From Stieleria bergensis (lineage in GTDB: Bacteria; Planctomycetota; Planctomycetia; Pirellulales; Pirellulaceae), in assembly GCA_007745635.1 (NCBI GenBank), contig CP036272.1, positions 5,850,816 through 5,914,815 on the forward strand: a DNA stretch of 64,000 nt, in the 5' to 3' direction. The notes below the pieces were generated by a model, which made no database searches, was not told where the DNA came from, and saw nothing but the letters and a program-made list of their open reading frames with translations. The translations under genes were made by a program, and so were the position numbers. How positions within the stretch are numbered: the first letter of the stretch is position 1; every line of letters starts with the position of its first letter. This document shows, in pieces, positions 4,468 through 64,000 of this stretch.

Positions 4468-5555
4468 AACGCGACGCAGACTTTAAAGCGCTGGCACAGT
4501 TCATGGGCGAATGGATGCGTGGTGAAGGCCCCGAATCCGACATCGCCATCAGTACGCGAATTCGTCTCGCCAGAAACCTCGCTGACTTTCCGTTCATTCG
4601 ACGCTGCAGTGATGAAGATCGACTGAGCATTGAACGGTCGGTTCGCGCTCGCATGGAAAGCCTAACCGACCCGCAGTTCCAAGCCGCCAACTACATTGAC
4701 TTGGAACCGCTTTCGGAACTCGACCGACAACTATTGGTCGAACGGCAATTGATCAGTCGCGAGATCGCCGAATCAGATGGCTCACGAGCCGTTGCCTTTG
4801 ATCCCAACGAAGGCTATAGCGTCATGATCAATGAAGAAGATCACTTGCGCATCCAAGTCATGAAAAGCGGCCTGGACATCAAGAGCACCTGGGAACAAGT
4901 CAACCGCCTGGACAACTTGCTGGAGGAAGTCATCCTGTACGCCTTCCACCAACAGTATGGCTACCTGACCGCCTGCCCAACCAACGTGGGCAGCGGCCTC
5001 CGCGTCAGCGTGATGTTGCACTTGCCCGCGTTAGTCATCACCGAACAGATGGATCGCGTGTTCCGCAGCATGCAAAAAATCAACGTGACGGTTCGCGGTT
5101 TGTACGGCGAAGGATCACAGTACAGCGGAGACTTTTACCAAGTCAGCAACCAAGTCACCTTGGGGCATAGCGAAGCGGAATTGCTGTCGTTGGTCGCCGA
5201 TGAAGTCGCACCGCAAATCATTGCCTATGAACGCAAGGCACGCGAATCACTGCTGAACAACAACCGCGATGATCTGCATGACGAAGTCAGCCGCGCGATG
5301 GGCATCTTAAGCACCGCGCGGAAAATCAGCAGTGAAGAAACCATGCACCATCTGTCCAAGATTCGTCTTGGCGTCAGCATGGGCTTGGTCGAACATCTGG
5401 ACGTCAAAGCAATCAATCAAATGTTCCTACAATCGCAAGCGGCACACTTGCAAACCTTGCAAGGCGGCGTGTTAGGAACCGCAGAGCGGCATGCGCGTCG
5501 AGCCAGCTTCTTGCAAAAACAGCTCACCGGCAAGTCTGACAACTCTTGGAATTAA
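4464..5555 (+). CDS. mcsB: Protein-arginine kinase McsB
   Basis: The protein phosphorylates arginine side chains, which in Firmicutes marks proteins for ClpCP degradation. It has 363 aa, the same length as Bacillus McsB, and belongs to the ATP:guanido phosphotransferases. Seen motifs: ISTRIRLARN near the N-terminus (nucleotide-binding), CPTNVGSG with the catalytic-loop Cys at 171, and GSQYSGDFYQVSNQ. The C-terminal allosteric motif RDxxRA of Bacillus McsB reads RHARRA here (342-347), so the Asp is His. The GTG start overlaps the mcsA stop and has AAGGAAGG upstream. A free-arginine or creatine kinase is unlikely because of the McsA partner. Confidence 0.92.
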   Translation: MKRDADFKALAQFMGEWMRGEGPESDIAISTRIRLARNLADFPFIRRCSDEDRLSIERSVRARMESLTDPQFQAANYIDLEPLSELDRQLLVERQLISREIAESDGSRAVAFDPNEGYSVMINEEDHLRIQVMKSGLDIKSTWEQVNRLDNLLEEVILYAFHQQYGYLTACPTNVGSGLRVSVMLHLPALVITEQMDRVFRSMQKINVTVRGLYGEGSQYSGDFYQVSNQVTLGHSEAELLSLVADEVAPQIIAYERKARESLLNNNRDDLHDEVSRAMGILSTARKISSEETMHHLSKIRLGVSMGLVEHLDVKAINQMFLQSQAAHLQTLQGGVLGTAERHARRASFLQKQLTGKSDNSWN

Positions 5556-5568
5556 TCTCTCAGCCAAC

Positions 5569-8500
5569 ATGAAATCCCTCCCCACACTCGCATTGCAACT
5601 GGTATCGGTTGCAGTGTTTTTTGCGTTTCCCACCTCTTCGGCGCTGGCCCAAAAAAAGCCTCGAAACCCGGATGCCAAGAATCGGCCCTCTGGCATTCCC
5701 ACCCCGGCTGAAGACGCCAATCTTCAGCGCTATGGCATCTATGCAAAGACCGCTCCTCGGCCCGCCAAAGCTCAGCCTGTCAACACCTCCCTGCCGCTGC
5801 AACTGGAATCCGGTGATCGCATTGTCCTGATTGGTAACTCGCTGCTCGAAGGCAACGCAGACTTCGGTCATCTTGAAGCGATGATCCAGCAGGCGCATCC
5901 CGCGCATCACGTCACCGTTCGCCACCTGGCTTGGCAGGCCGATGAAGTCGGTGTCCAGCCGAGACCAGCGAACTTTGCCGACACACTTCAGCACCTCACC
6001 CATGAACAAGCCGATGTCATTCTTGTTGCCTATGGGTTCAACGAATCATTCGCCGGCGAGCAAGGCGTTGCAGCGTTTCAGCAACAACTGGACAGTTACG
6101 TCAACACCTTGCGCAGCAGCGCTTTCAACGGTGAATCCGCGCCGCGAGTCATCCTGCTGTCCCCGATTGCCAATGAAAACATCTACAGCATCGCCGCGGC
6201 GGATCGAAACAACGGCAACATCCATGCTTATGCAACGACTATCCAGCAAGTCGCCCAAGACCAGCAGGTAGGCTTTGTCGATCTGTTTGCGCCCACTGCC
6301 AAGGCTTTCCAAAGCATGGGTGAAGACCTGACGATCAATGGCATTCACTTAAACGAACAAGGTGACAAACTGGTCAGCAGCGAGATCTTTCGGCAACTGT
6401 TCGGCCAAGAGCCGCAACCGATCAACGACGATTTACGGGCGGTGATTGTCGACAAGAACCGCCAGTTCTTCCGCCGCTTTCGCCCTCTGAACACGTTCTA
6501 CTACACCGGCGGACGCAACAAGAGCTATGGCTACCTGGACTTCCTGCCCGCGATGCGGAACTTCCAGTGGATGGCAGCCAACCGTGATCAGCGAATTTGG
6601 AACCTCGCAGCTGGCAAGCCCGTCAGTGGCCCCGTTGATGACAGCCAAATGCCAGCGATGCCGGCAACCAAGCAAAGCCGTGGTGCCAACCAATGGATGA
6701 CGGCTGCCGACGAACTAAAAGCCTTTCAAGTCGATCCGCGATTTGAAGTCAACCTGTTTGCAGGCGAAGAACAATTCCCCGACATCGCCAACCCCATTCA
6801 AATGCGTTGGGATTCGCGGGGAAGACTCTGGGTCAGCTGCTCGACGACGTACCCGCACGTGTATCCCGGCAAGGAACCCAACGACAAGCTGGTCATCCTG
6901 GAAGACACCGATGGCGACGGTAAAGCCGACAAGTCCACGGTGTTTGCCGACGACCTGCATGTGCCTCTGTCGTTCGAATTTGGAAACGGTGGTGTTTACG
7001 TTAGCGAACAACCCGCGCTAACGTTTCTAAAAGACACCAATGGTGACGACAAAGCTGACGTGCACCGCACCGTCCTGACCGGCTTTGGGACCGAAGACTC
7101 TCACCACTCGTTGCACGACATCATGTGGACTCCTGATGGAGACATGATTTTCCGTGAGTCGATTTTCCACCACACCCAAGTCGAAACGCCTTATGGCCCG
7201 GTTCGTCAACAGAACAGTGGCTGGTTCCGGTATCAACCACGTGATCATCGACTGGTCGGATTTGGGTCCTATCATAGCACCAACCCCTGGGGCGTGACCT
7301 TTGACGACTGGGGCCAACACATGGCCAGTCACCCGGTCTATGCCGAAGCCTTTCATGCGATTGACCCTGGATACCCCAATCAACATCCCAAACCCACCGG
7401 CCTGCAAGCGTATTCCGGAGTTTGTGGACATCAGTTCATCGATACCGCGACCTTCCCCCAGGACTTGCAGGGCCACTTCGTCAAAGTGCGTTACAAACCA
7501 ACCAACCGAGTTGAATTGCTGAAGTGGAAACAAACTGAGTTTGGTTACCAAGAAGAGTACATCAGTGACTTGATCTTTAGCACCAACCTGAGCTTCATCC
7601 CCGTCGACTTGCAGTGGGGCCCACGCGGAGCACTGTATGTCTGTGACTGGTACAACCCCATCAAGGGTCATGCACAGTATTCACTGCGCGATCCACGACG
7701 TGATCGTGACTCCGGTCGAATCTGGCGGATCGTGGCAAAAGATCACTCGTTGCAAGAACCACCCAAGATTGCAGAAGCCTCGATCGAACAGCTTCTGGAC
7801 TTGCTCAAACGCCCTGAAACGCGCATCCGCTACTGGGCCAAACAGGAGCTAAAAGAGCGCCATGCTGAAGCGGTTCTGGCCGCACTGGATCAATGGGTTG
7901 CCAACCTGGACGCATCAGATCCAAGGTTTCGCCACCACCAACTGGAAGCGGTCTGGACGTATCGCAGCGTCGGTTTGATCGGCATGCCAGACAGTATCAA
8001 TCCCGACGCCACGCTCAACCGTGCGCCGCCACAGACCGCCGCGAACACTCGCCTTAGCGAGCAAGAAGCCAACAGCAAAGAAGTCGCTATCAAGACGCTG
8101 CAAGCACTGCTAACCTGTGACCATGCAAACGCCAGAGCAGCTGCGACGAAACAGTTGCGATACTTTCATCCGCACCTGTCGAATCGGTACGCGGCTTTGA
8201 AAAATGCCGCTCAGGACAAACATGCCATTGTACGGATGCAAGCGGTGATCGCGGCGAGCTACATCGGCACCGAAGCTGCATTGGAAGCAATCCTGCCTGT
8301 GTTTCGCTTTCCTGCCGATGGGCATTTGCAATACGCCATCACCTGTGCCCTAGGCTCACGCACCCTGCGTCGCCACTGGGAACACGACGACCGCTGGGGC
8401 ATTGCGGCACGTCTGAAACAGTCAGCCAAGAGTCGGCAAATCAAAGAGCCGACACCCAGCGCCAGCCAAGCTCAATTCGACAACCAAAAAGACTTGGCAT

Positions 8501-9462
8501 TGTCCAAGATCTTCTGCATCCCCGAAAAGATGCTGTTCTCCAAAGACAGTCTGACCGTCAAACCGGGCCAGCCGGTGAAGATTGTGTTTACGAACCCTGA
8601 CGCCACCGATCACAACTTGGTGATTGTCAAACCGGGTGCCCTGGCCGAAGTGGGCATGGCGGCCAATGAAATGGCCAAGGACCCACGCAATGCCAAAGGC
8701 GACTTTATACCTCGTGAAAAATCTGATCTCATTTTGCACGCTTCACCGATGATCGGCCCGACACGCAGCTCACTGATTCACGTCATGCGGTTCAACGCCC
8801 CCACAGAGCCAGGCATTTATCCCTACGTGTGCACCTTCCCCGGACACTGGGTGGTGATGAACGGCAATCTGATTGTGGCCAAAGATCAGCAGCAAGCGCA
8901 ATCTTTATTGGCGACCACCAAACCAGCCATCGTCAAAAAATGGACCATGGAGGACTTCAAGGATCTAAAGTCCATCAGTCATCAGAACGACCCGATGGCC
9001 AAGACGCGTGGCATGATGGCGCTGGCAAAGGCAAACTGTATTCAGTGCCACCAACTCGCTGGCCATGGCGCCAACCTGGGACCTGATCTTGCCAAGTCGA
9101 CGCAAAAGTTGCAGGGCGCTGACTTGCTGCAACAAATCATTGCTCCCTCGTCACAAATCCATCCGGAATACCAAAGCTATCGCTTCTTAATGGACAGTGG
9201 ACGGATCATCCAAGGGGTGATCGTGGAAGAGACCGACAAGGCGTTCAAGATCGCCGAGAACCTGCTGACCCCGAACTCGTTCACCAACGTGCCAAAGGAT
9301 CAAATTGAGTTTCAAAGCAAGTCAACAACGTCACCAATGCCCAATGGATTGCTTGACATCCTGACGAAGGAAGAGATCCTTGATTTGTTGGTCTATCTGG
9401 AAGCCGGTGGTTACGAACTGCCCGATCACCTCAAAGGCCGACATGGGCACGGCTCCAAGTAA
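5569..9462 (+). CDS. SGNH hydrolase - PVC propeller - blue copper - cytochrome c multidomain protein
   Basis: This 1297-aa exported protein has a signal peptide at 1-28 (cleavage near ALAQ). Domains in order: an SGNH/GDSL hydrolase at about 83-290 (IGNS with Ser91, GFNES, and NGIHLNEQG where the usual Asp is Asn); a PVC-type dehydrogenase-like propeller at about 386-724 with EDTDGDGKAD and KDTNGDDKAD calcium loops; HEAT-like helices at about 730-945; a cupredoxin at about 985-1105 with DHNLVIV and YVCTFPGHW...MNG as copper ligands; and a cytochrome c with ANCIQCHQ near 1157 ending in EEILDLLVYLEAGG. I infer periplasmic oxidation of a sugar-like substrate with electron flow through copper and haem. 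ATG 5569 sits 13 bases after mcsB. The longer frame from 5491 would overlap mcsB. Confidence 0.88.
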   Translation: MKSLPTLALQLVSVAVFFAFPTSSALAQKKPRNPDAKNRPSGIPTPAEDANLQRYGIYAKTAPRPAKAQPVNTSLPLQLESGDRIVLIGNSLLEGNADFGHLEAMIQQAHPAHHVTVRHLAWQADEVGVQPRPANFADTLQHLTHEQADVILVAYGFNESFAGEQGVAAFQQQLDSYVNTLRSSAFNGESAPRVILLSPIANENIYSIAAADRNNGNIHAYATTIQQVAQDQQVGFVDLFAPTAKAFQSMGEDLTINGIHLNEQGDKLVSSEIFRQLFGQEPQPINDDLRAVIVDKNRQFFRRFRPLNTFYYTGGRNKSYGYLDFLPAMRNFQWMAANRDQRIWNLAAGKPVSGPVDDSQMPAMPATKQSRGANQWMTAADELKAFQVDPRFEVNLFAGEEQFPDIANPIQMRWDSRGRLWVSCSTTYPHVYPGKEPNDKLVILEDTDGDGKADKSTVFADDLHVPLSFEFGNGGVYVSEQPALTFLKDTNGDDKADVHRTVLTGFGTEDSHHSLHDIMWTPDGDMIFRESIFHHTQVETPYGPVRQQNSGWFRYQPRDHRLVGFGSYHSTNPWGVTFDDWGQHMASHPVYAEAFHAIDPGYPNQHPKPTGLQAYSGVCGHQFIDTATFPQDLQGHFVKVRYKPTNRVELLKWKQTEFGYQEEYISDLIFSTNLSFIPVDLQWGPRGALYVCDWYNPIKGHAQYSLRDPRRDRDSGRIWRIVAKDHSLQEPPKIAEASIEQLLDLLKRPETRIRYWAKQELKERHAEAVLAALDQWVANLDASDPRFRHHQLEAVWTYRSVGLIGMPDSINPDATLNRAPPQTAANTRLSEQEANSKEVAIKTLQALLTCDHANARAAATKQLRYFHPHLSNRYAALKNAAQDKHAIVRMQAVIAASYIGTEAALEAILPVFRFPADGHLQYAITCALGSRTLRRHWEHDDRWGIAARLKQSAKSRQIKEPTPSASQAQFDNQKDLALSKIFCIPEKMLFSKDSLTVKPGQPVKIVFTNPDATDHNLVIVKPGALAEVGMAANEMAKDPRNAKGDFIPREKSDLILHASPMIGPTRSSLIHVMRFNAPTEPGIYPYVCTFPGHWVVMNGNLIVAKDQQQAQSLLATTKPAIVKKWTMEDFKDLKSISHQNDPMAKTRGMMALAKANCIQCHQLAGHGANLGPDLAKSTQKLQGADLLQQIIAPSSQIHPEYQSYRFLMDSGRIIQGVIVEETDKAFKIAENLLTPNSFTNVPKDQIEFQSKSTTSPMPNGLLDILTKEEILDLLVYLEAGGYELPDHLKGRHGHGSK

Positions 9463-9479
9463 GCACGGGTCCAAGTAAG
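9448..9479. repeat. 16-bp tandem duplication spanning a stop codon
   Basis: CACGGCTCCAAGTAAG (9448-9463) and CACGGGTCCAAGTAAG (9464-9479) differ at one base. The first copy contains the TAA of the multidomain gene, so the stop context AAG-TAA is repeated 16 bases downstream. Confidence 0.8.
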
Positions 9480-9834
9480 CCGTGGGAAGCAAGGCGTGCT
9501 CAAGAGACAGCGGTTGAATCGATCGCCTGGCAAGCCCCAGGCGAGCTCAGATTGCACGGACTCCATTGTCATGCAAGCGCATCCCGCAAAGGCAGTGCCC
9601 GTGCAGACCGTGCATTGCAACGGCAACAGATCTCGCGGGAGCACCTTTCAGCGGCGGCTTTGCAACAGACATCGGTTTGAAATCTGATGGTTTGCGAGCC
9701 AGAGTAGGCAACCGAGAATCACTTCCAGCGCCGCCGGCACGGGTGCACGCCCATCGGTGGCGGCTGACGAAGTATACTGGGGCTTTCTGCCTCGTCTCAT
9801 CGACGGCCCTCTTTTCTCGCTTAGGTTGATCTTC
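9463..9834. other. Intergenic region, no gene seen
   Basis: Apart from the tandem duplication at its left edge I see no conserved feature or terminator in these 372 bases. A 292-codon antisense frame (9547-10425) runs through it but mirrors the next gene and is not coding. Confidence 0.5.
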
Positions 9835-10902
9835 ATGAGTGCCTCCATTCGTCGTCGCCGATTCATCGCGACTGCCGCTGCGACCGCGGCCTGTGCCCCA
9901 GCTCTTATCACCGCAAAACGAACCGCAGCACAAGACGTGACCGGGCAAGGGGACTTTCAGTACAAGGTCAAACACGCCTGGCCAGAACTGCCTAGCAAGT
10001 TCACTTGGCAGACCACTCATAATGTCGCGGTCGACAAAGCCAATCGCCTGTACGTGATTCACGAAGGCGTTGCCGGCACTGAGCATCCATCGATTTTTGT
10101 CTTTGATGATGAAGGCCGTTACATCCGCTCGTTTGGCAAACAATTCCAAGGCGGCGGACATGGCATCGAAGTACGTGAGGAGAACGGCGAAGAGTTCCTG
10201 TACGTGGCCGCTTACCAGCAAGTGAAATCCTTCGCCAAGCTTAGCCTGACCGGTGAAACCGTCTGGCAGAAGTACGCTCCGATGGAAAGCGGAAAGTACG
10301 CTGAAGGTGAAGCCAACAATCCTCAGAAAATTTGGGGACGCGATCGATTCATGCCGACCAATTTTGCCTTTCTGGATGACGGTGGCTTCTTGCTGGCCGA
10401 CGGTTACGGCGCGTTTTACATCCATCGATACGACAAAGATGCCAACTGGGTTTCATGCTTCGGTGGTCCCGGCAAAGGCCCTGGCACCTTTCAAACCGCG
10501 CATGGTGTTTGGATTGACCGACGCGGTGACCAGCCAACCATTGTGGTGACCGATCGAGCACGAAACACACTGCAACGGTTTACCTTAGCTGGCAAATACA
10601 TCGACACGCTGCCTGGCTATGGATTGCCAGCCAACCTGGACACCTATGAAGACTTGATGATCGTTCCGGAATTGGTTGCTCGGTTAACGATTCTCGATAA
10701 AGACTGCAACATCCTGGCACATCTCGGTTCGGACGTTGATCGTCTTACAGCCGATCGATCCAAAAGCATTCGTCGCGACGAAAGCAAGTGGCAAGACGGC
10801 AAGTTTGTCCACCCGCACGACGCCTGCTTTGATCGCCAGGGTGACATCTTCGTCGCCGAATGGGTCTCGACCGGACGAATCACCAAACTGACTCGCGTTT
10901 AA
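9835..10902 (+). CDS. Tat-exported NHL-repeat/six-bladed beta-propeller protein
   Basis: This 355-aa protein begins with a twin-arginine signal (IRRRRFIATAAATAAC, predicted cleavage near residue 35). The rest is a beta-propeller of NHL/peptidylamidoglycolate-lyase type with recurring blade strands such as NRLYVIHEG, EFLYVAAYQQ, GGFLLADGYG, TIVVTDRARNTLQRF and GDIFVAEWVSTGRI. Planctomycetes carry many such exported propellers, usually beside sugar-metabolism genes; substrate unknown. ATG 9835 is chosen because the twin Arg then falls at residues 6-9. The sugar-isomerase-like gene starts 33 bases downstream, so both are probably cotranscribed. Confidence 0.82.
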   Translation: MSASIRRRRFIATAAATAACAPALITAKRTAAQDVTGQGDFQYKVKHAWPELPSKFTWQTTHNVAVDKANRLYVIHEGVAGTEHPSIFVFDDEGRYIRSFGKQFQGGGHGIEVREENGEEFLYVAAYQQVKSFAKLSLTGETVWQKYAPMESGKYAEGEANNPQKIWGRDRFMPTNFAFLDDGGFLLADGYGAFYIHRYDKDANWVSCFGGPGKGPGTFQTAHGVWIDRRGDQPTIVVTDRARNTLQRFTLAGKYIDTLPGYGLPANLDTYEDLMIVPELVARLTILDKDCNILAHLGSDVDRLTADRSKSIRRDESKWQDGKFVHPHDACFDRQGDIFVAEWVSTGRITKLTRV

Positions 10903-10935
10903 AGCAATCCGCAACACCTTGCAGGGACATCAGCG

Positions 10936-11976
10936 ATGAGCGATCACACTCCGTTGGGCAACAACCGAAAAAACCCCAATCGACTTGGACGACGTGAGAT
11001 GCTGGCTTATGCAGCGTTTGGCGGCACCGCGTTTGCCGCAGCGACTGGAGATGCCGCAGCGCAATCAGCCCCCGCGGCGCAATCGGCCCCTCAGGCGGCC
11101 CCCAAACGCAAGTATTCGATGAAAAAGTCGATCAACTTGTGGGCGTTCCCGTACCCCGACAAGATGTCTCTTCGGGAGTGCTTGCAACTGGCAAAGGACG
11201 CCGGCTTTGATGGGATCGAACTGAACTACGATCTCGACAGCGAACTGTCCCCAAAATCTGGGACCAAAGAGTTCACGGCGATCCGCCGCGCTGCGGAAGA
11301 GATTGGCATTGCAATCAGCGGTTTGTGCTCGTTTCTGTTCTGGCCTTATCCACTGACGAGCAATGATCCAGCAGAACGCGCCCAAGGCATGGAGCTGGCC
11401 GGCAAAATGACTCAGGCGGCCCATGACTTGGGCACGGAGAATTTACTGGTCGTTCCGGGCGCGGTTCACATGCCCTGGCGTGAAGATCATGATCCAACTC
11501 CCAACGACGTTTGTGACCGGCGGGCGCGAGAGGCGATCGGCAAATTACTGCCTCAGGCCGAGAAGCTAGGTGTCTACTTAAACATGGAGAACATCTTCTT
11601 CAATGGATTCCTGATGAGTCCCATGGAGATGGTAGAGTTCGTTGACAGTTTCTCAAGCGAGCATGTTAAGGTTCACTTTGATACTGGCAACATCATGGAG
11701 TACCAGTTCCCCGAACACTGGATCCCCATTTTAGGTGACCGCATCAAGAACGTTCACCTGAAAGAATACACAAAGAAAGGCACAGACCATTCGCTGGAAG
11801 CCTTTCGCCCCTTGTTAGATGGAACCACCAATTGGCCAGCTGTTCTGCAGGCGTTTGACACGGTTGGCTACGATGGCTACCTAACGTTTGAATACTTCCA
11901 TCCCTATCAGCATCACCCCGAAGCCTTGATTTATCAAACGGCGGATTCGTTAGATCGCATGCTGGGACTGAAGTAG
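10936..11976 (+). CDS. Exported sugar phosphate isomerase/epimerase-like TIM barrel
   Basis: This 346-aa protein belongs to the xylose-isomerase-like TIM-barrel family (hydroxypyruvate isomerase/UxaE-like). An N-terminal Tat-type signal (LGRREMLAYAAFGGTAFAA) is followed by an Ala/Gln linker with repeated AQSAP. The barrel starts near residue 65 (SINLWAFPYPDKMSLRECL). Metal-site regions are visible: NMENIFFNGF (Glu), VHFDTGNI (Asp), IKNVHLKEY (His) and YLTFEYFHPY (Glu). It probably isomerises or epimerises a keto sugar in the periplasm together with the upstream propeller. Its stop lies two bases from the stop of the convergent DUF885 gene, leaving no room for an intergenic terminator. Confidence 0.85.
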   Translation: MSDHTPLGNNRKNPNRLGRREMLAYAAFGGTAFAAATGDAAAQSAPAAQSAPQAAPKRKYSMKKSINLWAFPYPDKMSLRECLQLAKDAGFDGIELNYDLDSELSPKSGTKEFTAIRRAAEEIGIAISGLCSFLFWPYPLTSNDPAERAQGMELAGKMTQAAHDLGTENLLVVPGAVHMPWREDHDPTPNDVCDRRAREAIGKLLPQAEKLGVYLNMENIFFNGFLMSPMEMVEFVDSFSSEHVKVHFDTGNIMEYQFPEHWIPILGDRIKNVHLKEYTKKGTDHSLEAFRPLLDGTTNWPAVLQAFDTVGYDGYLTFEYFHPYQHHPEALIYQTADSLDRMLGLK

Positions 11977-56843: not shown

Positions 56844-57803
56844 TTATTTCTGATCAGCGAGGCGATAAAGTGGCTCGCTGGCGGCGGGCTGGACGACTGT
56901 CGGTGACCGGCGTCTTGTCACCGGCGCGGTGTAACCGACTTGCACGGCAGTTGGCAAATCGCCAACACGATGGGGCAGAGTGTTTGATGCTGAGACAGGC
57001 TCTGGTTCCGCCCCGGCGGCCCCGGTCGCTGGAGCCTGCAAGGGGATCCAGTTCGGGTAACCAAAGTAAAACTGGCCCATCAACACAGGGCTTGTTGGGG
57101 GCGCCAGCGAGCCAATTCGAATGACTGCAATGGGCCTGCCATAGGTGTCAGCGGTGGCCAGGAGGTCTTGACCGGTTGGAACGTCAATCGGAGTGGCATC
57201 CTTGCGCTCGACAGCCAGCGGAAACGCTGACTGAGGATCTTCCAAGTAAACCACTCGCGTCACCATTAATCCACCCAATGCGTTGGCCAGATCGGTCTCG
57301 CTTAGGTTCAATGGGATCGGATGTCGCAATTCCGCTCCGGCAGGTGGAAAGGTTCGTCCTAAGAGTTCCACCGTTGGATACAGTTCTGCTCCGGGATGAA
57401 ACGGAATGTTGGTGACGCGGAATCGATACACGCGTCCCACATTCAATCCAACCATCAATTCTGGTTGTGACTCTTGAAAACCATCTCCAGTAGGCATCGA
57501 GAACTGGACCTTACCGGGGCCAGAGAATGCAACCGGCTGGAAGTACTCTGGAGTGTGATTCACAGGACCTGGAGGATAATAGATATTCCCAGGTGGCATG
57601 GAAGGGTTGTAGAGCCGATGGCCTTGCTGCATCGGCAGCGGCCGGGCACCTTGGGCGATGACTTGGCTGGCGAGTGAGCCAATAAGCAGTGTCGAAAGCA
57701 AAGCAACCAGGGCTTTGGACCAGCTGGTCATCCGTACGGCTTGATCACCGGCATGCAATGCCTGCAATGTTCGCTTTAATCTGATCATGATGCGACTTGC
57801 CAT
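56844..57803 (-). CDS. Envelope protein, paralogue of the 57966 gene
   Basis: This 319-aa protein has an N-terminal signal (WSKALVALLSTLLIGSLASQVIA, preceded by a ~30-residue basic n-region, so the start may be ATG 57731). The middle (about 115-235) is homologous to the neighbour at 57966: YRFRVTNIPFHPGAELYPTVELLGR here and YRLKLTNIPNREGVELYPTVELA there, then VTRVVYLEDPQSAFPLAV and IAVIRIGSL. The C-terminus carries VGDLPTAVQVG. Probably exported. No function known; the DUF11 gene follows closely, suggesting one operon. Confidence 0.75.
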   Translation of the reverse strand: MASRIMIRLKRTLQALHAGDQAVRMTSWSKALVALLSTLLIGSLASQVIAQGARPLPMQQGHRLYNPSMPPGNIYYPPGPVNHTPEYFQPVAFSGPGKVQFSMPTGDGFQESQPELMVGLNVGRVYRFRVTNIPFHPGAELYPTVELLGRTFPPAGAELRHPIPLNLSETDLANALGGLMVTRVVYLEDPQSAFPLAVERKDATPIDVPTGQDLLATADTYGRPIAVIRIGSLAPPTSPVLMGQFYFGYPNWIPLQAPATGAAGAEPEPVSASNTLPHRVGDLPTAVQVGYTAPVTRRRSPTVVQPAASEPLYRLADQK

Positions 57804-57965: not shown

Positions 57966-59183
57966 TTACTGACAGGTCTGACAGTTAGCACCGTGCAGAC
58001 ATCCTGCAGGGTTGCGTTGACTGATGTTCACGCGACTTACAGGGTTCGGGTAGCGGTAACCCGGAGACTGCCTGACGTTGATCTTGAACTTGTCAACAGG
58101 TGCTGGCATGTGAACCTTGGTGTGATTGGTCATCACGTGCTTGGTCAGACCGGCGGGTCCGCCCAATGGCAAGTGCGGTGGACCAGGCAGACCGATTGGA
58201 GTGCCAGTCATTGTCATGCCATACTGAGGCATGTTCACACCAGCGATCATCGATGGCCCCGCTGCGCCAGGAGCACCGATCGGGCCGCAACCCTGACTGG
58301 ACGCAACGGCGAATGGTGCAGGCAGACCATTGATCGGTGGTGACATGGCACCCAAGGCACCTGAACCAGCCATTTCAATGTCTTTGTCACCCAAGCGAAT
58401 GATCGCCAGGATCGAACCGCGACGATCGGCTTCAACAATCGGGTCGATGCCTGGATCCAGTCGAGTGCTAACCAGAGTGTCGATACCAGCCAACGCAGGA
58501 CCTTGGAAGTCCGGATCGGGAAGGTACAGAACCTTGGTCACAAAGTTACCAGTGACGACTTGGTCAAAGTCTTCTTGGTCAAACTGAATCGGAATGGAGT
58601 TGTGCGCCAAGTAAGCTCCGGTGCGAGGATTGGCAAATGCCAGCTCGACCGTCGGATACAGCTCCACACCTTCGCGGTTTGGAATGTTGGTCAACTTCAG
58701 ACGGTACAGACCACCTTGCGGAAAGTTCTGCCGAGCGGGGCAGATCAAGGGATCGCTGTCAAAGGTACCGCTACCGGTTTGATCGTAGCGAATCTGCATG
58801 CCTTCGGGACGGCCGAACGTGACTTGGACGCTCTGCATTTGAGGTGCCGCTACCATGGCACCCTCCATGACGCTGCCCTGGGCATAACCTTGGCTACCAG
58901 GTGGGCAGTATGGATCCGCGAATGACGCTGGAACCACACCGCTGCCGCCAGGCAGATCGCCGGTCGATGCAACAGGCATTCCAGCGGGCATTCCCATGGG
59001 AGCGCCCATGGGGGCTCCCATAGCAGCTTGTGGACCAAGCACACCGGGTCCGGGTCCATCGACGCCGGGTCCGGGATGCATCAGGTGTTGAGTTGGTGGC
59101 AAATTGTGGCGGGTCGGCACGCATCCGGTCGCGACCATCGCACCAGCCGCAATTAGCGACAAGTGGTTGACGAAGCGTTTCAT
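57966..59183 (-). CDS. Surface lipoprotein with GDLP motif
   Basis: This 405-aa lipoprotein has lipobox ATGC at about residue 20 (AAGAMVATGCVPT). A Pro/Gly/Met-rich linker (GPGVDGPGPGVLGP, MGAPMGAPMGMPAGMP) and STGDLPGG precede the conserved module shared with the 56844 paralogue: LYRLKLTNIPNREGVELYPTVELA ... FVTKVLYLPDPDFQGPALAG ... ILAIIRLGDKD (about 165-280). The tail is Gly/Pro/Met-rich with a Cys-rich end (GCLHGANCQTCQ). ATG 59183 has GGGGGA upstream; ATG 59195 is an alternative. The terminator at 57894 makes it monocistronic. Probably outer membrane. Confidence 0.78.
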   Translation of the reverse strand: MKRFVNHLSLIAAGAMVATGCVPTRHNLPPTQHLMHPGPGVDGPGPGVLGPQAAMGAPMGAPMGMPAGMPVASTGDLPGGSGVVPASFADPYCPPGSQGYAQGSVMEGAMVAAPQMQSVQVTFGRPEGMQIRYDQTGSGTFDSDPLICPARQNFPQGGLYRLKLTNIPNREGVELYPTVELAFANPRTGAYLAHNSIPIQFDQEDFDQVVTGNFVTKVLYLPDPDFQGPALAGIDTLVSTRLDPGIDPIVEADRRGSILAIIRLGDKDIEMAGSGALGAMSPPINGLPAPFAVASSQGCGPIGAPGAAGPSMIAGVNMPQYGMTMTGTPIGLPGPPHLPLGGPAGLTKHVMTNHTKVHMPAPVDKFKINVRQSPGYRYPNPVSRVNISQRNPAGCLHGANCQTCQ

Positions 59184-59404
59184 CTTTTCCCCCATTCCTT
59201 GGGTTTCACCGCGCTCGAATGCGGTTGCGGGGACAAGCCCGCGTAGGCTGAATTATCAAAGGTGTCTCAGGCGATCACGATCTGGGTGGACTTATGACCC
59301 AGTTCGTCTCTACGATCCAGGCACCTCACCGGCAGACCTGCCTCGTGCTAACAGCATCGGCAGGTTCGCAGGCAATTCTTTGGAAAAATCGCCATAACCC
59401 GACA

Positions 59405-60625
59405 ATGAAGATCGATCGACAACACCGGATTGACTCTGAGAGTCAAAAAAGCATGCAATTATCGGGGGATTTCGCGACATTTCCCGCCAAACACAACGAT
59501 CCGGAAAAAATGCAAACCTGCCCAGGCCCAACAGCCGCCAAACCAGGCCGGCATGTTAACTTAGGCAAAACTGCAAGACTCTACCGCCCAGTGCTGCTAG
59601 GAATCGCCGTTTTTCTTGCCCTGCTGATCCTGTGCAGCGACAGGTTCCTGGCCAACACCACTCAAGCCAATCAACAACCTGCGCAACCGCCAGCAAACAC
59701 GGCTCCGGAAAACACTGCCTCCCAGCAGGCCACAGCAGGCAGCTCGCCCAGCGACCTTCCAGATCCAGACCGCGACAGCAAGCTCTCGGCCGAGCAACTC
59801 CAGCAACGCGCTGAACGACAACTCAGCGAGTTGATCGTGCGAATCGCCAACGGGCCGGGGTTTCGCTGCGACCTCTGGCAACGTGTTCGCACCCAACAGG
59901 AATCCAAAGAACGCGAAATCCTGTGTCTTGGTAGCTATTTACACCAGGGTCAAGGAACCGCGCGATTCGAGATGCACACCCAGATTGCCGGTCGCCGCGA
60001 AGATCTTTTGCGTCAAGTCAGTGATGGGCGTCTGCTGTGGACGAGCCAGATGATCGCTGGCAGGCTAAATCTAAGCCGCGTCGACCTGGGCCTCCTGGAC
60101 GATCGCTATCGCTCGAAAGGCAAGCCAGTGGAGAGCATGCCAAACGTCGGACACCCGGTGGAGATTCGGCCCAGCATGCTCACCGGCGGCCTTTGCGAGA
60201 TCCTGGACACCATGCGACGCGATTACGACCTCTCGCTCGGGACAAGTGACGCCAATGGACAGGACCTGATGGTCATCATTGGCAATTTGAAAAACAGCAA
60301 ACGAGAGGCGATCATCAGTCAGTCTGGCGGAAAGCTGCCCCCAAGCTATCCCACGCGAATCAACGTTGCCGTCGCGCTACAGAACGATCAACCGACGGGT
60401 TTTGGCAAAGGACTGCCGGTTCAGATCGAACACTTTGGCACGCCCCCAGAGGACGACGATCAGGACGCTACCATCAGCCGACGCAACATGATTTCATTGC
60501 TGCAGCTCAACAACCTGCAACCACTGAAAGCAGCCCCGCTAAACGATCGCTTTAAATTTGACAGCGGTGACAACGAATTCATCAGTGAAACGCCGCGCTA
60601 CGAGACGCGTTTCCAACTCCGCTAG
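59405..60625 (+). CDS. Membrane-anchored protein with LolA-like features
   Basis: This 406-aa protein has a charged N-terminus, one membrane helix (YRPVLLGIAVFLALLILC, about 62-80), a Pro/Ala/Gln linker with TNQ repeats and a soluble beta-rich domain from about 120: LVRIANGPGFRCDLWQRVRTQQ ... GSYLHQGQGTARFEMHTQ ... SDGRLLWTSQ, a LolA/outer-membrane-sorting-like pattern. Exact homology is not shown, so LolA-like is a description. ATG 59405 is chosen; 59453 is possible. Its TAG stop overlaps the stop of the convergent permease gene in a shared CTAG. Confidence 0.65.
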   Translation: MKIDRQHRIDSESQKSMQLSGDFATFPAKHNDPEKMQTCPGPTAAKPGRHVNLGKTARLYRPVLLGIAVFLALLILCSDRFLANTTQANQQPAQPPANTAPENTASQQATAGSSPSDLPDPDRDSKLSAEQLQQRAERQLSELIVRIANGPGFRCDLWQRVRTQQESKEREILCLGSYLHQGQGTARFEMHTQIAGRREDLLRQVSDGRLLWTSQMIAGRLNLSRVDLGLLDDRYRSKGKPVESMPNVGHPVEIRPSMLTGGLCEILDTMRRDYDLSLGTSDANGQDLMVIIGNLKNSKREAIISQSGGKLPPSYPTRINVAVALQNDQPTGFGKGLPVQIEHFGTPPEDDDQDATISRRNMISLLQLNNLQPLKAAPLNDRFKFDSGDNEFISETPRYETRFQLR

Positions 60626-61980
60626 CTTGCATCCGGCGGACCGTCGTCGTCACTCTTTGGTTCGGCGGGAATCACCGTTCCGTGCGGATCAAGGCCAGTG
60701 GAAGAGGTCTGATCGACCAAGCGATCACGCAAGGCTTGCCCGGTGAAGTGCTCCCACTGTTCGGCCTTGTCGTGAATCTTCGACCGATCCAGTTCCGCCT
60801 GCTCGACCAAGTAACTCTCCCACAAGCGGTGAGAACGAACCAAGGCTTTACCGAGCTTTTCACCCTGTTTGGTCAGTTCAATCTGCTGGCCGCAATCGCG
60901 AATGCAGTCCTGCCTGACCAAGCGGCGCAGCGCCAGAGACATCGGCACCGCCGAGCTAAACAACTCGGTGATCAGGTCACTGCGTTTTGCAATCGCTTCT
61001 CCGTGACGCTCGCCCGCACGATACAAGTAGGCCACGATATCGTCGCGAAGAATCTGTTGCGAAAGCACGAAGCGGCGAATCGATCGCGACACCAAGCCCT
61101 GCTGGGGAGCAAACAACAACGCCAGGACAAACAAACCGCCAAGGGCCACCGACATCATGCCAGCGGTTGAGGTGCTGGGCATCCCAAACGCACGCGGGAT
61201 GGCAAAGGCGCCCACATGCCCCAAAATCGCCCCCGCAGCTCCGATGACGACCGACAGCACGATCATCAGCCCCAATCGATGCGTCAGCAAGAACGCTGCC
61301 GATGGAGGGACCACCAACATCGCCACGACCAAAATGTTGCCAACGCTTTCAAAACAGGCCACCGTCGTCACTGCCACCAAAACCATCAAAGCATAGTGCA
61401 TCCAGGCGGGACGCACCCCTTGCGAATGCGCAAGCGAGGGATCAAAGGAACTGATCTTTAGCTCCTTGTAACACACCAGAACAAAGGCCGCATTGATCAA
61501 TGTCACCACTGACAACACCACCGCTGCTTGTGGCACCTCATAAGCCCCGATGTTGACGGTGAACATCGGTGTCAAATCGATCGCACCATACAAGACGCAA
61601 TCAGCATCCAGATCAACGTGGTCGGCTTGAACGATCATCACCAAGCCGAGCGCAAACAGCGACGTGAAGACGACGCCCATCGCTGCACTCTCTTCCACAC
61701 GGCCAAAGCGACGAATCCATTCGGTGAACATGGCCGTCAACACGCCCACGATCACAGCGCCAACAAACATTGCCAGACTGCTGCGTGAATGACTGATCAG
61801 AAACGCAGCCACCAAGCCCGGCAAGACAGCGTGACTGACGGCATCACCCAGCATCGACATTCGCCGCAGGACTAAAAAATTGCCCAGCAGTGCTGTCGAC
61901 GTCGCACATAACACGCCGACAACCATGATCCAGCCGTCAAATTGCCAATCCCATCCCTGCAACACTGCCAACATCGCCAT
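60622..61980 (-). CDS. Metal ABC transporter permease fused to DtxR/MntR-like domain (second)
   Basis: This 452-aa protein has seven or eight membrane helices at 1-290 of the ABC-3 permease family (MntB/ZnuB/TroC: LRRMSMLGDAVSHAVLPGLV, LVVAMLVVPPSAAFLLT). The C-terminus (about 310-430) matches iron-dependent repressors: a winged helix (VPMSLALRRLVRQDCI ... QIELTKQGEKLGKALV) then HRLWESYLVEQ, HDKAEQWEHFTG and DPHGTVIP. The metal-site Glu in HDEACxxEH is Lys here. It overlaps the upstream permease stop at one base (TGATG) and ends in a shared CTAG with the convergent gene. It probably exports no DNA-binding role: cytoplasmic sensing of the imported metal is the working idea. Confidence 0.9.
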   Translation of the reverse strand: MAMLAVLQGWDWQFDGWIMVVGVLCATSTALLGNFLVLRRMSMLGDAVSHAVLPGLVAAFLISHSRSSLAMFVGAVIVGVLTAMFTEWIRRFGRVEESAAMGVVFTSLFALGLVMIVQADHVDLDADCVLYGAIDLTPMFTVNIGAYEVPQAAVVLSVVTLINAAFVLVCYKELKISSFDPSLAHSQGVRPAWMHYALMVLVAVTTVACFESVGNILVVAMLVVPPSAAFLLTHRLGLMIVLSVVIGAAGAILGHVGAFAIPRAFGMPSTSTAGMMSVALGGLFVLALLFAPQQGLVSRSIRRFVLSQQILRDDIVAYLYRAGERHGEAIAKRSDLITELFSSAVPMSLALRRLVRQDCIRDCGQQIELTKQGEKLGKALVRSHRLWESYLVEQAELDRSKIHDKAEQWEHFTGQALRDRLVDQTSSTGLDPHGTVIPAEPKSDDDGPPDAS

Positions 61981-63311
61981 CAGGTCGACTCCATCGCATG
62001 TGGACTGGAGGGAACGGCAATCCGAATCGGATCGTGATCCAACAACCGCTCAAGTTTCTCAACGACATCGTGTTCCAACACATGCTCGATGTCATCTGCA
62101 TCGCGATCCACGCGAGCGGTCGCAACGTCGGCATAGTGCACCAGGTACAGTTCCCACAAACGGTGTTGACGGGTCAAGCGAGCAGCCTCGGCATAACCGG
62201 CGCTGGTGAGCGCCACTTGATCGGTTTTGTAACGCACTAATTCGACCAACTCAGCGGTCTCAATCTGGCGGCGCAACTGCTTGGAATTCCAGCTTCGTTT
62301 TTGCAGCAGGTCAATCAAGCTCACCCAGTGCCCTGGATTTGCATCTTGAAACTCAGCTTCGCTCAGCTCGTAAATGCCTCTCAAGAGATGCTGTCGAGCA
62401 ATCTTGGCATTCAACTGCCGCCGTCGCCAAAGCCTGGGGAGCACGCCTCGCTGGGTACCAAAGAACATGCTGACTGCAAACAGCAAGGCGCAGGCTAACA
62501 CGATCATTGCTCCTGAGGGCAGATCGGCCATCACCGCGCTCGCTGTCGCCCCCAGCACGCTGCCAACCAGACCGATCGATGCAGAGACCAACGCCAAGCG
62601 GAAAATCGATTCGGTCCAAAACCGGGCCGCTGCGGCGGGAATGACCAACATTGCGACCATCAACACCAAGCCCACAGCTTGCAGGCCCACCATCGTGACC
62701 ATCACGACCAAGACCATCAAAATGGTGTCCAGCAACCAAACACGCAAACCTCGCGAGCCAGCAAAATCCGCGTCAAAACACAGCAGTTTGAGCTCCTTGA
62801 ACAACACCCCGGTGACCAAAATCGAAATCAACGCCGTGATCGCGATCATGATTCCATCGGCCCGCCGCATGGAGGCCGTTTTGCCAAAGATATAGGTCTC
62901 CAGCCCCGCGCTGTGACCGGCGTCCATCTTCTGAGTGATGCCCAGCAAGACCACGCCCAGCCCAAAGAACACACTGAGAACGATCCCCAACGTGGCGTCC
63001 TGCTTTAACTTGGTAAAACGCTGCAAGAACAAAATGCAAGCCACACCCGCCAGGCCACCCATCGTGGCCCCAGCCAATAACAACGGCATCGACTTTCCAT
63101 CACCGCCTGCGGCCACCGCAATCATAAATGCGATCACCAAACCGGGCAGACTCGCGTGCGCTAACGCATCGCCCATCAAGGATCGCTTCCGCAGCAAAGT
63201 GAAACTGCCGACTAAACCGGATGCCGCTCCTAACAGTGCCACCCCCAACAAAACCACTCGCGTGTTGTAGTCTCGCAGTAACAGCACATCCCACAGATCA
63301 GACCAGATCAC
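61980..63311 (-). CDS. Metal ABC transporter permease fused to DtxR/MntR-like domain (first)
   Basis: This 443-aa protein is the sister of the downstream permease: ABC-3 helices (LLRKRSLMGDALAHASLPGLV, LVLMVAMLVIPAAAARF) at 1-290, then a winged-helix/DtxR part (VSLIDLLQKRSWNSKQLRRQI, VALTSAGYAEAARLTRQHRLWELYLVHYAD) and a metal-site-like stretch DADDIEHVLEHDVV, where the usual Glu-x-x-Glu-His reads with Asp. It starts at GTG, overlapping the ATPase stop by four bases (GTGA), so the three genes are coupled. Two different permeases probably form a heterodimer. The substrate is Mn, Zn or Fe. Confidence 0.9.
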   Translation of the reverse strand: MIWSDLWDVLLLRDYNTRVVLLGVALLGAASGLVGSFTLLRKRSLMGDALAHASLPGLVIAFMIAVAAGGDGKSMPLLLAGATMGGLAGVACILFLQRFTKLKQDATLGIVLSVFFGLGVVLLGITQKMDAGHSAGLETYIFGKTASMRRADGIMIAITALISILVTGVLFKELKLLCFDADFAGSRGLRVWLLDTILMVLVVMVTMVGLQAVGLVLMVAMLVIPAAAARFWTESIFRLALVSASIGLVGSVLGATASAVMADLPSGAMIVLACALLFAVSMFFGTQRGVLPRLWRRRQLNAKIARQHLLRGIYELSEAEFQDANPGHWVSLIDLLQKRSWNSKQLRRQIETAELVELVRYKTDQVALTSAGYAEAARLTRQHRLWELYLVHYADVATARVDRDADDIEHVLEHDVVEKLERLLDHDPIRIAVPSSPHAMEST

Positions 63312-64000
63312 AGTGACCGCTCCCGCCGTCGCATCGCTTCGGTGACTTCATCGAGCAATGTGAGACGTCCACCATAGGTTTTCTGAAGGTTCTCGGGAGT
63401 GAACACTTCCTGCACCGGGCCATGCGCCACGACGCGCATGTTCAATAGAACCACATAATCGAAATAGGCAGGCACGGTTTGCAAGTCATGGTGGATCACC
63501 ACGGCGGTTTTCTTGCGTTGCTTGAGCTCGCGCAGAATCTCGACAATGGCCTTTTCAGTCGCCGCGTCAACCGCCGCAAAGGGCTCATCCATCAGATACA
63601 GATCGGCATCTTGCACCAATGCTCGCGCCAAAAAAGTGCGTTGCTGCTGGCCACCGGAGAGCTGGCTGATTTGCCGTTTAGCAAGGTCGGCAATGCCAAC
63701 ATGCTCCAGTGCTTGCATCGCAAGATCACGATGTTTTTGCCGCACCGGACGGCCCCAACCAACTTGGCCGTACAACCCCATGGTCACAACGTCTAACGCA
63801 TCGACGGGAAAATCCCAGTCCACGCTTTCTCGCTGCGGCACATAGCCAACGTTCCGGCGTGATAGATGATAGGGTTTACCGAACACTTCGACGCGTCCGG
63901 AAGCTCGCGGCACCAACTCCATCACCGCCTTGAGCAACGTGCTTTTGCCAGCACCATTGGGGCCGACGATGCCAACCAACGAGCCCGCTGGCAAATCAAA
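63308..64000 (-). CDS. Metal ABC transporter ATPase (5' truncated)
   Basis: The frame runs off the right edge, so the N-terminus is missing; the TTG at 63994 is not the start. Visible: Walker A GPNGAGKST, GYVPQRESVDWDFPV (a Q-loop typical of MntA/ZnuC-type ATPases), the signature SGGQQQR, Walker B LYLMDEP and the H-loop VIHHD. It powers the two permeases downstream, which overlap it in turn. A substrate-binding protein gene would be expected upstream, outside the window. Confidence 0.95.
   Translation of the reverse strand, partial: FDLPAGSLVGIVGPNGAGKSTLLKAVMELVPRASGRVEVFGKPYHLSRRNVGYVPQRESVDWDFPVDALDVVTMGLYGQVGWGRPVRQKHRDLAMQALEHVGIADLAKRQISQLSGGQQQRTFLARALVQDADLYLMDEPFAAVDAATEKAIVEILRELKQRKKTAVVIHHDLQTVPAYFDYVVLLNMRVVAHGPVQEVFTPENLQKTYGGRLTLLDEVTEAMRRRERSL

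Follow-up and report, generated by a model that had tools for sequence, protein, structure and literature searches.

DtxR-like tails on both permeases of a transition metal importer in Stieleria bergensis: candidate metal sensors attached to the transporter

Why should both permeases of one metal importer carry, behind their membrane helices, a domain of the DtxR/MntR type? The question is raised by a 64,000-nucleotide stretch of the Stieleria bergensis genome (contig CP036272.1, positions 5,850,816 to 5,914,815; hereafter the window), which encodes two permeases of an ATP-binding cassette (ABC) importer, each with such a C-terminal tail. On balance we lean to the view that these tails are metal sensors which remain attached to the transporter and adjust its transport, and are not mainly DNA-reading repressors.

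The preliminary description of the window had stated that both permeases end in DtxR/MntR-like domains, and the profile search confirmed this for both tails. Pfam PF02742 (Fe_dep_repr_C, cut-off 27) was matched by residues 369-426 of permease 1 (50.3 bits, E 2.4e-13) and residues 370-438 of permease 2 (66.8 bits, E 1.8e-18), behind ABC-3 domains at residues 17-284 (E 1.3e-57) and 18-290 (E 1.3e-44), respectively. The isolated tails also matched DtxR-family chains among the Protein Data Bank sequences (DtxR, IdeR, ScaR, SloR, MtsR), the best being 6o5c_A for tail 1 (E 1e-07) and DtxR 2qqb for tail 2 (E 2e-11). AlphaFold models of the two single permeases, built on alignments of 27 and 23 sequences with the query counted, had predicted local distance difference test scores (pLDDT) of 89.2 and 85.4, and in both of them the membrane helices are followed by a winged helix-turn-helix (HTH) and then by a helical metal/dimerisation domain. 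With Foldseek the membrane parts of permease 1 (E 2.8e-15) and permease 2 (E 2.1e-14) were matched to PsaBC, and the tail of permease 2 to DtxR-family chains (best E 1.1e-5, target TM-score up to 0.82). No winged HTH family was listed in the Pfam scan of the permeases at E up to 1, a scan without the free regulators as a control. The fusion as a frame artefact was ruled out, since dozens of other genomes contain uninterrupted frames built in the same way.

The frames of the two permeases overlap by 1 base, and the operon consists of genes for a substrate-binding protein (SBP), an ATPase, permease 1 and permease 2, with a divergent gene for a free MntR adjoining (Table 1). This free regulator of 135 amino acids passes the NCBIfam MntR equivalog model (PRK11050, 166.9 bits, cut-off 153). 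The whole genome had three PF02742 matches (E 0.001), namely the two tails and one free regulator, and a search of it for ABC-3 domains at E 0.001 found none besides these two permeases. The nearest NCBIfam models were manganese (MntA) and manganese/iron models for the ATPase, and AztC (zinc) and MntC/EfaA (manganese) for the SBP, all of them below their cut-offs. From these likenesses we infer an importer of first-row transition metals, with Mn or Fe likelier than Zn.

In the family, PF02742 was found in 59 of 60 genomes (own included). The regions fetched for comparison were mostly picked for a PF02742 match, and the proportions given below are therefore not frequencies. Sixty fetched stretches contained two importer types besides free regulators. 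Type A has the order SBP-ATPase-permease 1-permease 2, and a tail of at least 60 residues was present in 26/29 frames of permease 1 and 29/30 of permease 2 (own genome included). The permease-1 tail was absent in loci L074 and L076, the permease-2 tail was truncated in L066, and L090 lacked both tails and had a free MntR gene. Type B has a single permease with a longer tail, and a second ABC-3 frame was found in 0/20 loci. The type-B tail has about 220 residues (L052:7482-9056 and 19 other loci); its extra C-terminal part is FeoA/SH3-like by eye and had no Pfam match in L052, the only one searched, and many type-B loci have a gap between SBP and ATPase. In one contig of genome G006 (L041 and L088) a tailed permease 2 (near 2.398 Mb) lies about 1.5 Mb apart from an SBP-ATPase-tailed permease 1 operon (near 0.925 Mb).

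The first evidence for a retained sensor is the metal site. Ligand positions are given throughout in MntR numbering, and the primary metal-site ligands of MntR are positions 8, 11, 77, 99, 102 and 103. Permease 2 of the window kept D314, H384, E407, E410 and H411, and in permease 1 D8 and E99 are replaced by H308 and D406. Permease-2 tails of the Planctomycetota sample had Asp at position 8 in 29/29, H77, H98, E102 and H103 in 28/29 (the remaining one, the truncated L066, was left out of H77-based counts) and E99 in 26/29. Type-B tails had D8, H77, H98, E102 and H103 in 20/20, with His or Asp at position 99. A different set was found in the permease-1 tails: H8 (21/26), H77 (26/26), D98 (24/26), D99 (22/26), E102 (24/26) and H103 (21/26). 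As the ligand sets of tail 1 and tail 2 differ, the sequences suggest unequal metal sites, of His/Asp in tail 1 and of Asp/His/Glu in tail 2. H77, H98, E102 and H103 were likewise present in 44/44 tails of environmental Chlamydiota. VD_L272 has no anchor at position 8, and the frames of L253, L254 and L260 in the ligand table of all groups were chosen by best tail score. The permease-1 tails of L081, L084 and L086 have lost several ligands and the permease-2 tails of the same operons have retained them, which looks like decay of one sensor.

The second evidence is the drift of the DNA-reading region. From helix 1 to the wing, mean within-group identity was 0.20-0.27 in six tail groups, 0.56 in Chlamydiaceae and 0.49-0.58 in free regulators; for the metal domain the values were 0.55-0.68, 0.78 and 0.65-0.84. 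The membership of genomes in Chlamydiaceae is our own judgement, and sequence likeness was among its grounds. The ratio of DNA-reading to metal-domain identity was thus 0.31-0.45 in 6/7 tail groups, 0.72 in Chlamydiaceae and 0.69-0.82 in three groups of free regulators. When pairs were matched at metal-domain identity 0.65-0.80, DNA-reading identity was 0.22-0.30 in the five tail groups having such pairs, 0.51 in Chlamydiaceae and 0.46-0.57 in free regulators. The same picture was obtained within five genomes possessing both tails and MntR, where recognition-helix identity was 0.36 (A1), 0.29 (A2) and 0.71 (MntR), and metal-domain identity was 0.75, 0.70 and 0.72. Overall, recognition-helix identity was 0.22-0.30 in A1, A2 and B versus 0.87 in free DtxR and 0.68 in free MntR. 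These tails therefore lack the conserved DNA-reading helix of the winged HTH in DtxR/MntR regulators.

Twelve tails have gone further and have a shortened HTH, with 44-57 residues from position 8 to H77 compared with 68 in 9/9 free MntR, and the ligands remain. Such a length is too little for a normal HTH plus wing. Eight of the twelve come from Chlamydiota genomes with a single PF02742 match (incompleteness of the genomes could hide others). Because the HTH is shortened and the genome has no other PF02742 match, the kept function in these eight, as judged from sequence, can hardly be DtxR-type repression.

The third evidence is the linker. A glycine just past the last membrane segment stands exactly 18 residues before position 8 in 164/164 aligned proteins (161 permease tails and 3 anchored relatives), position 8 being read from the alignment. 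This spacing stays fixed while the region after position 8 varies from 44 to 94 residues. In both models the linker and position 8 form one helix which starts right after the glycine (block pLDDT 83-97; 93-97 for helix 296-326 of permease 2), and the last membrane helix covers residues 266-284 of permease 1 and 272-290 of permease 2. The tailless permeases that were inspected stop about 30 residues or less from this position. A spacing that is both fixed and helical favours mechanical coupling over a loose linker open to cleavage.

The same spacing occurs in an anchored protein near an iron transporter. L042:7709-8731 (+), directly upstream of feoB (pieces at 8728-9564 and 9644-11089), encodes a protein which combines a DtxR-like with a FeoA domain and which begins, by eye, with a short hydrophobic stretch. 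It shares the Gly-18-Asp spacing and the metal ligands with the permease tails, but has the hydrophobic stretch in place of a permease, the FeoA domain and FeoB as neighbour; it is possibly a FeoB-linked version of the sensor. Similar proteins are present in L044 and L058. In an Ignavibacteriae genome a free DtxR gene (L287:4166-4819) is directly followed by a frame (4840-5856) which by eye is like these DtxR-FeoA proteins.

Kept ligands, drifted DNA reading and a fixed linker are the reasons to prefer, outside Chlamydiaceae, tails that act as attached sensors, and the proposal could work as follows. The operon encodes the sole ABC-3 (Mn/Fe-type) importer that the search of this genome brought up, and each permease carries a cytosolic part derived from DtxR, which most probably retains the binding of a transition metal. 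Position 8 (Asp314 in permease 2, His308 in permease 1) would lie on the helix which starts after the glycine turn and is unbroken through the linker. In free DtxR and MntR, metal draws the position-8 helix onto the metal/dimerisation domain. Cytosolic metal may do the same in the tails, and the permease, being acted on by the moving helix, would then transport less (more is less likely), which would be a product feedback. The preliminary description had also supposed that the transporter senses cytosolic metal itself. This is the reading best supported by the three lines of evidence above, while metal binding, its coupling to transport, the sign of the coupling and the identity of the metal are what we infer from them.

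Such logic would be like the trans-inhibition of MetNI and ModBC, where the ATPase has a dimerising C-terminal domain to which internal substrate binds, and transport is inhibited (PMC10710835). The proposed likeness to the MetN C2 domain and the ModC C-terminal domain lies in a cytosolic domain which dimerises, detects the substrate inside the cell and halts transport. But those domains are parts of the ATPase and are folded differently; in the window the domains are on the permeases, the ATPase has 278 amino acids, and inhibition is proposed.

Several points weigh against this proposal. The tail of permease 1 matched DtxR folds weakly with Foldseek (best E 0.02), and its metal region was modelled with low confidence (block pLDDT 53-75). 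E11 of MntR is not retained in the tails, including both tails of the window, and position 8 is Asn in 42/44 environmental Chlamydiota, as also in 30/30 free D regulators. The HTH is of normal length in both window tails and in type-B tails (64-67 residues), and the changed recognition helix could instead reflect species-specific operators. The invariance of the linker depends on the alignment for position 8, and a turn (residues 285-289 in permease 1, 291-295 in permease 2) separates the last membrane helix from the linker helix. In view of the models this glycine turn could also act as a hinge, and a coupling to the membrane need not be rigid. One-tailed systems and the tailless L090 mean that the tails are dispensable in some species. 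Finally, the homologous YtgR of Chlamydia is reported to be cleaved and to repress promoters.

The control of the operon gives points on either side. In favour of the proposal are the free MntR gene beside the operon and an MntR-box-like core near some type-A operons. This core, TAGC-N4-GCTA, matches the E. coli MntR box. Near the start of the SBP frame it was found in 9/24 type-A loci (24 of 33 taken; expected 0.04), and four of these nine loci suggested the pattern, so that the expected value is valid only for the other five. It was found in 0/16 type-B loci (16 of 20 taken), and the tailless L090 is among the nine. The core was not found before the operon of this genome, where the best site for a TTTAGC-N4-GCTAAA-like palindrome had 4 mismatches. 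Transcription of this operon is probably left to the neighbouring free MntR. A whole-genome palindrome scan with 2 mismatches was uninformative, giving 167 sites, below the 622 of the reversed-pattern control.

The tails are not limited to this family. PF02742 was matched in 90/148 genomes of Planctomycetota, often in long frames, in 21/26 genomes of Chlamydiota (82/92 in a second, overlapping draw) and in 103/115 genomes of Verrucomicrobiota. In 61/61 Chlamydiota loci, all picked for a PF02742 match, one tailed and one untailed permease were found. Among 15 Verrucomicrobiota loci picked for long PF02742 frames, seven were two-tailed, seven were tailed on permease 1 only and one was type B. 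L289 and L291, from other families of Planctomycetota, are two-tailed.

The known precedent is YtgCR (CT069, in ytgABCD) of Chlamydia trachomatis, likewise an ABC-3 permease with a C-terminal DtxR-like domain in an SBP-ATPase-permease-permease operon, and Chlamydiota have the same spacing of Gly, 18 residues and position 8. However, here the permease on the YtgD side is tailed too, whereas that partner is untailed in 61/61 Chlamydiota loci; in addition, a free MntR is present and the DNA-reading region is unconserved. The claim that the fusion is unusual must accordingly be reduced, as YtgCR preceded it and permease-length PF02742 frames are widespread in Planctomycetota, Chlamydiota and Verrucomicrobiota; it is correct only in part. 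The dimeric regulatory gate, which had been drawn from the sensor on both halves, is weakened by the one-tailed state in 61/61 Chlamydiota and 7/15 Verrucomicrobiota loci of these selected sets, and this also counts against the proposal. One-tailed importers being common, an importer of this kind does not need two paired tails.

A tree of the membrane domains was made from 121 permeases, with 21/61 Chlamydiota pairs taken in. Permease 1 joined the tailed permeases of Chlamydiota (support 100/99), permease 2 joined the untailed ones (94/78, under the starred level), and type B was on the chlamydial-untailed side of the same main branch. The tailless rows of L090 were nested inside both permease groups, which speaks for secondary loss of its tails. 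A homologue without tails and with equal metal control had been named as what would speak against the proposal; L090 is such a case in part, and it has a free MntR and the box-like core. The tail tree (133 columns; 22 Chlamydiota tails; L066, L253, L254 and L260 left out) was poorly resolved. In it A1, C, B, M and the free regulators (D with R, 100/97) formed separate groups and A2, whose own support was weak (54/0), stood next to B (96/92), in a broad parallel to the membrane tree. The bootstraps of both trees were not settled. With the root left aside, an old fusion with later losses would be the simplest reading of these trees.

A wider form of the proposal can be put forward tentatively, and we rather doubt it as a whole. 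In DtxR, metal-driven movement sets the spacing of the two DNA-reading helices. In Planctomycetota, Verrucomicrobiota and Chlamydiota this hinge would have become a membrane lever, acting through the 18-residue helix and the glycine turn on the last membrane helix of the importer, which would put transport under direct feedback; the FeoB-side protein would be an anchored sensor, and the YtgR repressor a lineage-specific re-use of a sensor that belongs in essence to the transporter.

The first alternative is that the tails are released by proteolysis and act as metal-dependent DNA-binding repressors, as published for YtgCR. In C. trachomatis YtgR is reported to be cleaved from YtgC and to repress in an iron-dependent manner, with a cleavage product of about 28-30 kDa and Fe-dependent DNA binding (PMC5599777, PMC7755916). 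The kinship of permease 1 with the chlamydial tailed permeases and the normal HTH length predicted in both window tails are in line with release. Moreover, within the Chlamydiaceae group the constraint on the tails reaches that of free regulators (ratio 0.72), in agreement with the repressor role published for YtgR. The remaining six tail groups, however, show much weaker constraint on the DNA-reading region than free regulators do, twelve tails have the shortened HTH, the linker is invariant in length and predicted helical, and a free MntR gene is present. This contrast is limited, and Chlamydiaceae were dropped as a clean positive control: at matched membrane-domain identity of 0.60-0.75, HTH identity was 0.49 in them versus 0.44 in environmental Chlamydiota. 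Release is in our judgement unlikely for the window, and the earlier suggestion that the tails bind DNA at the membrane finds no support outside Chlamydiaceae.

Next, the tails may be modules for assembly or stability, which dimerise or dock to hold the permease pair, with a structural metal. The metal/dimerisation domain and the linker would then be kept and DNA reading lost, as is found. But one-tailed and tailless importers persist, and the residues which are kept form the sensory site in known regulators, making this alternative improbable too. Capture of free MntR (or DtxR) by hetero-dimerisation with the tails, which would tie transcription to the state of the transporter, is very improbable. 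Both partners have the dimerisation domain PF02742 and the free MntR gene adjoins the operon, but in 9 of the 49 genomes of the family that possess a long PF02742 frame a further full-length match is lacking (one of the nine has a 35-amino-acid fragment), 73 of 82 matching Chlamydiota genomes have only one PF02742 (incomplete genomes could hide some), and tails and free regulators form separate tree groups. That the tails are evolutionary remnants without present function is hardly credible: the permease-1 ligands lost in L081, L084 and L086 and the tails missing in L074, L076 and L090 would agree with it, but in three phyla there is hardly any variation in ligands and linker.

Compared with other known systems, the tails share with free DtxR, IdeR, MntR and TroR the two-domain fold and most metal ligands, but they are fused to a membrane protein, their recognition helix is unconserved and the ligand set of tail 1 is altered. 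The manganese importers PsaBC, MntB, TroCD and SitCD have the same ABC-3 membrane domain, and the best Foldseek matches were the PsaBC chains 7kyp/7kyo; the solved chains (258-290 residues) however are too short to include a tail of this kind. Already known are YtgCR and the Pfam domains. Among the open-licence papers listed, judged by titles and abstract starts, we found no two-tailed permeases and no tailed permeases outside Chlamydia, and the spread in Planctomycetota and Verrucomicrobiota, the drift of DNA reading and the fixed linker were likewise not met there.

Table 1. Positions of the importer genes, tails and predicted elements (window coordinates unless a locus is named)
Feature	Position	Strand	Remarks
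Permease 1 (YtgC-like half)	61980..63311	-	443 amino acids, GTG start; ABC-3 domain and DtxR-like tail
Permease 2 (YtgD-side half)	60622..61980	-	452 amino acids; ABC-3 domain and DtxR-like tail
Tail of permease 1	61983..62444	-	residues 290-443
Tail of permease 2	60625..61095	-	residues 296-452
Permease 1, predicted helix	62349..62444	-	residues 290-321, directly after Gly289; linker and His308 at the place of MntR Asp8
Permease 2, predicted helix	61003..61095	-	residues 296-326, directly after Gly295; linker and Asp314 at the place of MntR Asp8
Tail 1, predicted second HTH helix	62247..62285	-	residues 343-355; poorly conserved in family
Tail 2, predicted second HTH helix	60913..60951	-	residues 344-356; poorly conserved in family
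Tail 1, PF02742 metal-binding/dimerisation domain	62034..62207	-	residues 369-426; putative ligands H383, D402, D406, E409, H410
Tail 2, PF02742 domain	60667..60873	-	residues 370-438; putative ligands H384, E388, H403, E407, E410, H411
ATPase subunit	63308..64000	-	continues past window end; whole gene L004:5124-5960, 278 amino acids
SBP	L004:5976-7337		beyond window end
Free MntR gene	L004:7417-7824		divergent; beyond window end; 135 amino acids

Elsewhere in the window, two adjoining frames at 56844-57803 (-) and 57966-59195 (-) encode putative exported proteins with a domain similar by eye (...TNIP...ELYPTVEL...), which suggests local duplication.

If the attached-sensor reading is true, a transcription-factor fold would have become an allosteric domain of a transporter, and an ABC importer would have its metal sensor built into the permeases. 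Chlamydial YtgR would then be reread, as the sensor may predate the repressor, and the anchored FeoB-linked form hints that the module may be used with more than one metal transporter. It would also offer a testable case of a DNA-binding protein which loses DNA yet keeps its ligand switch.

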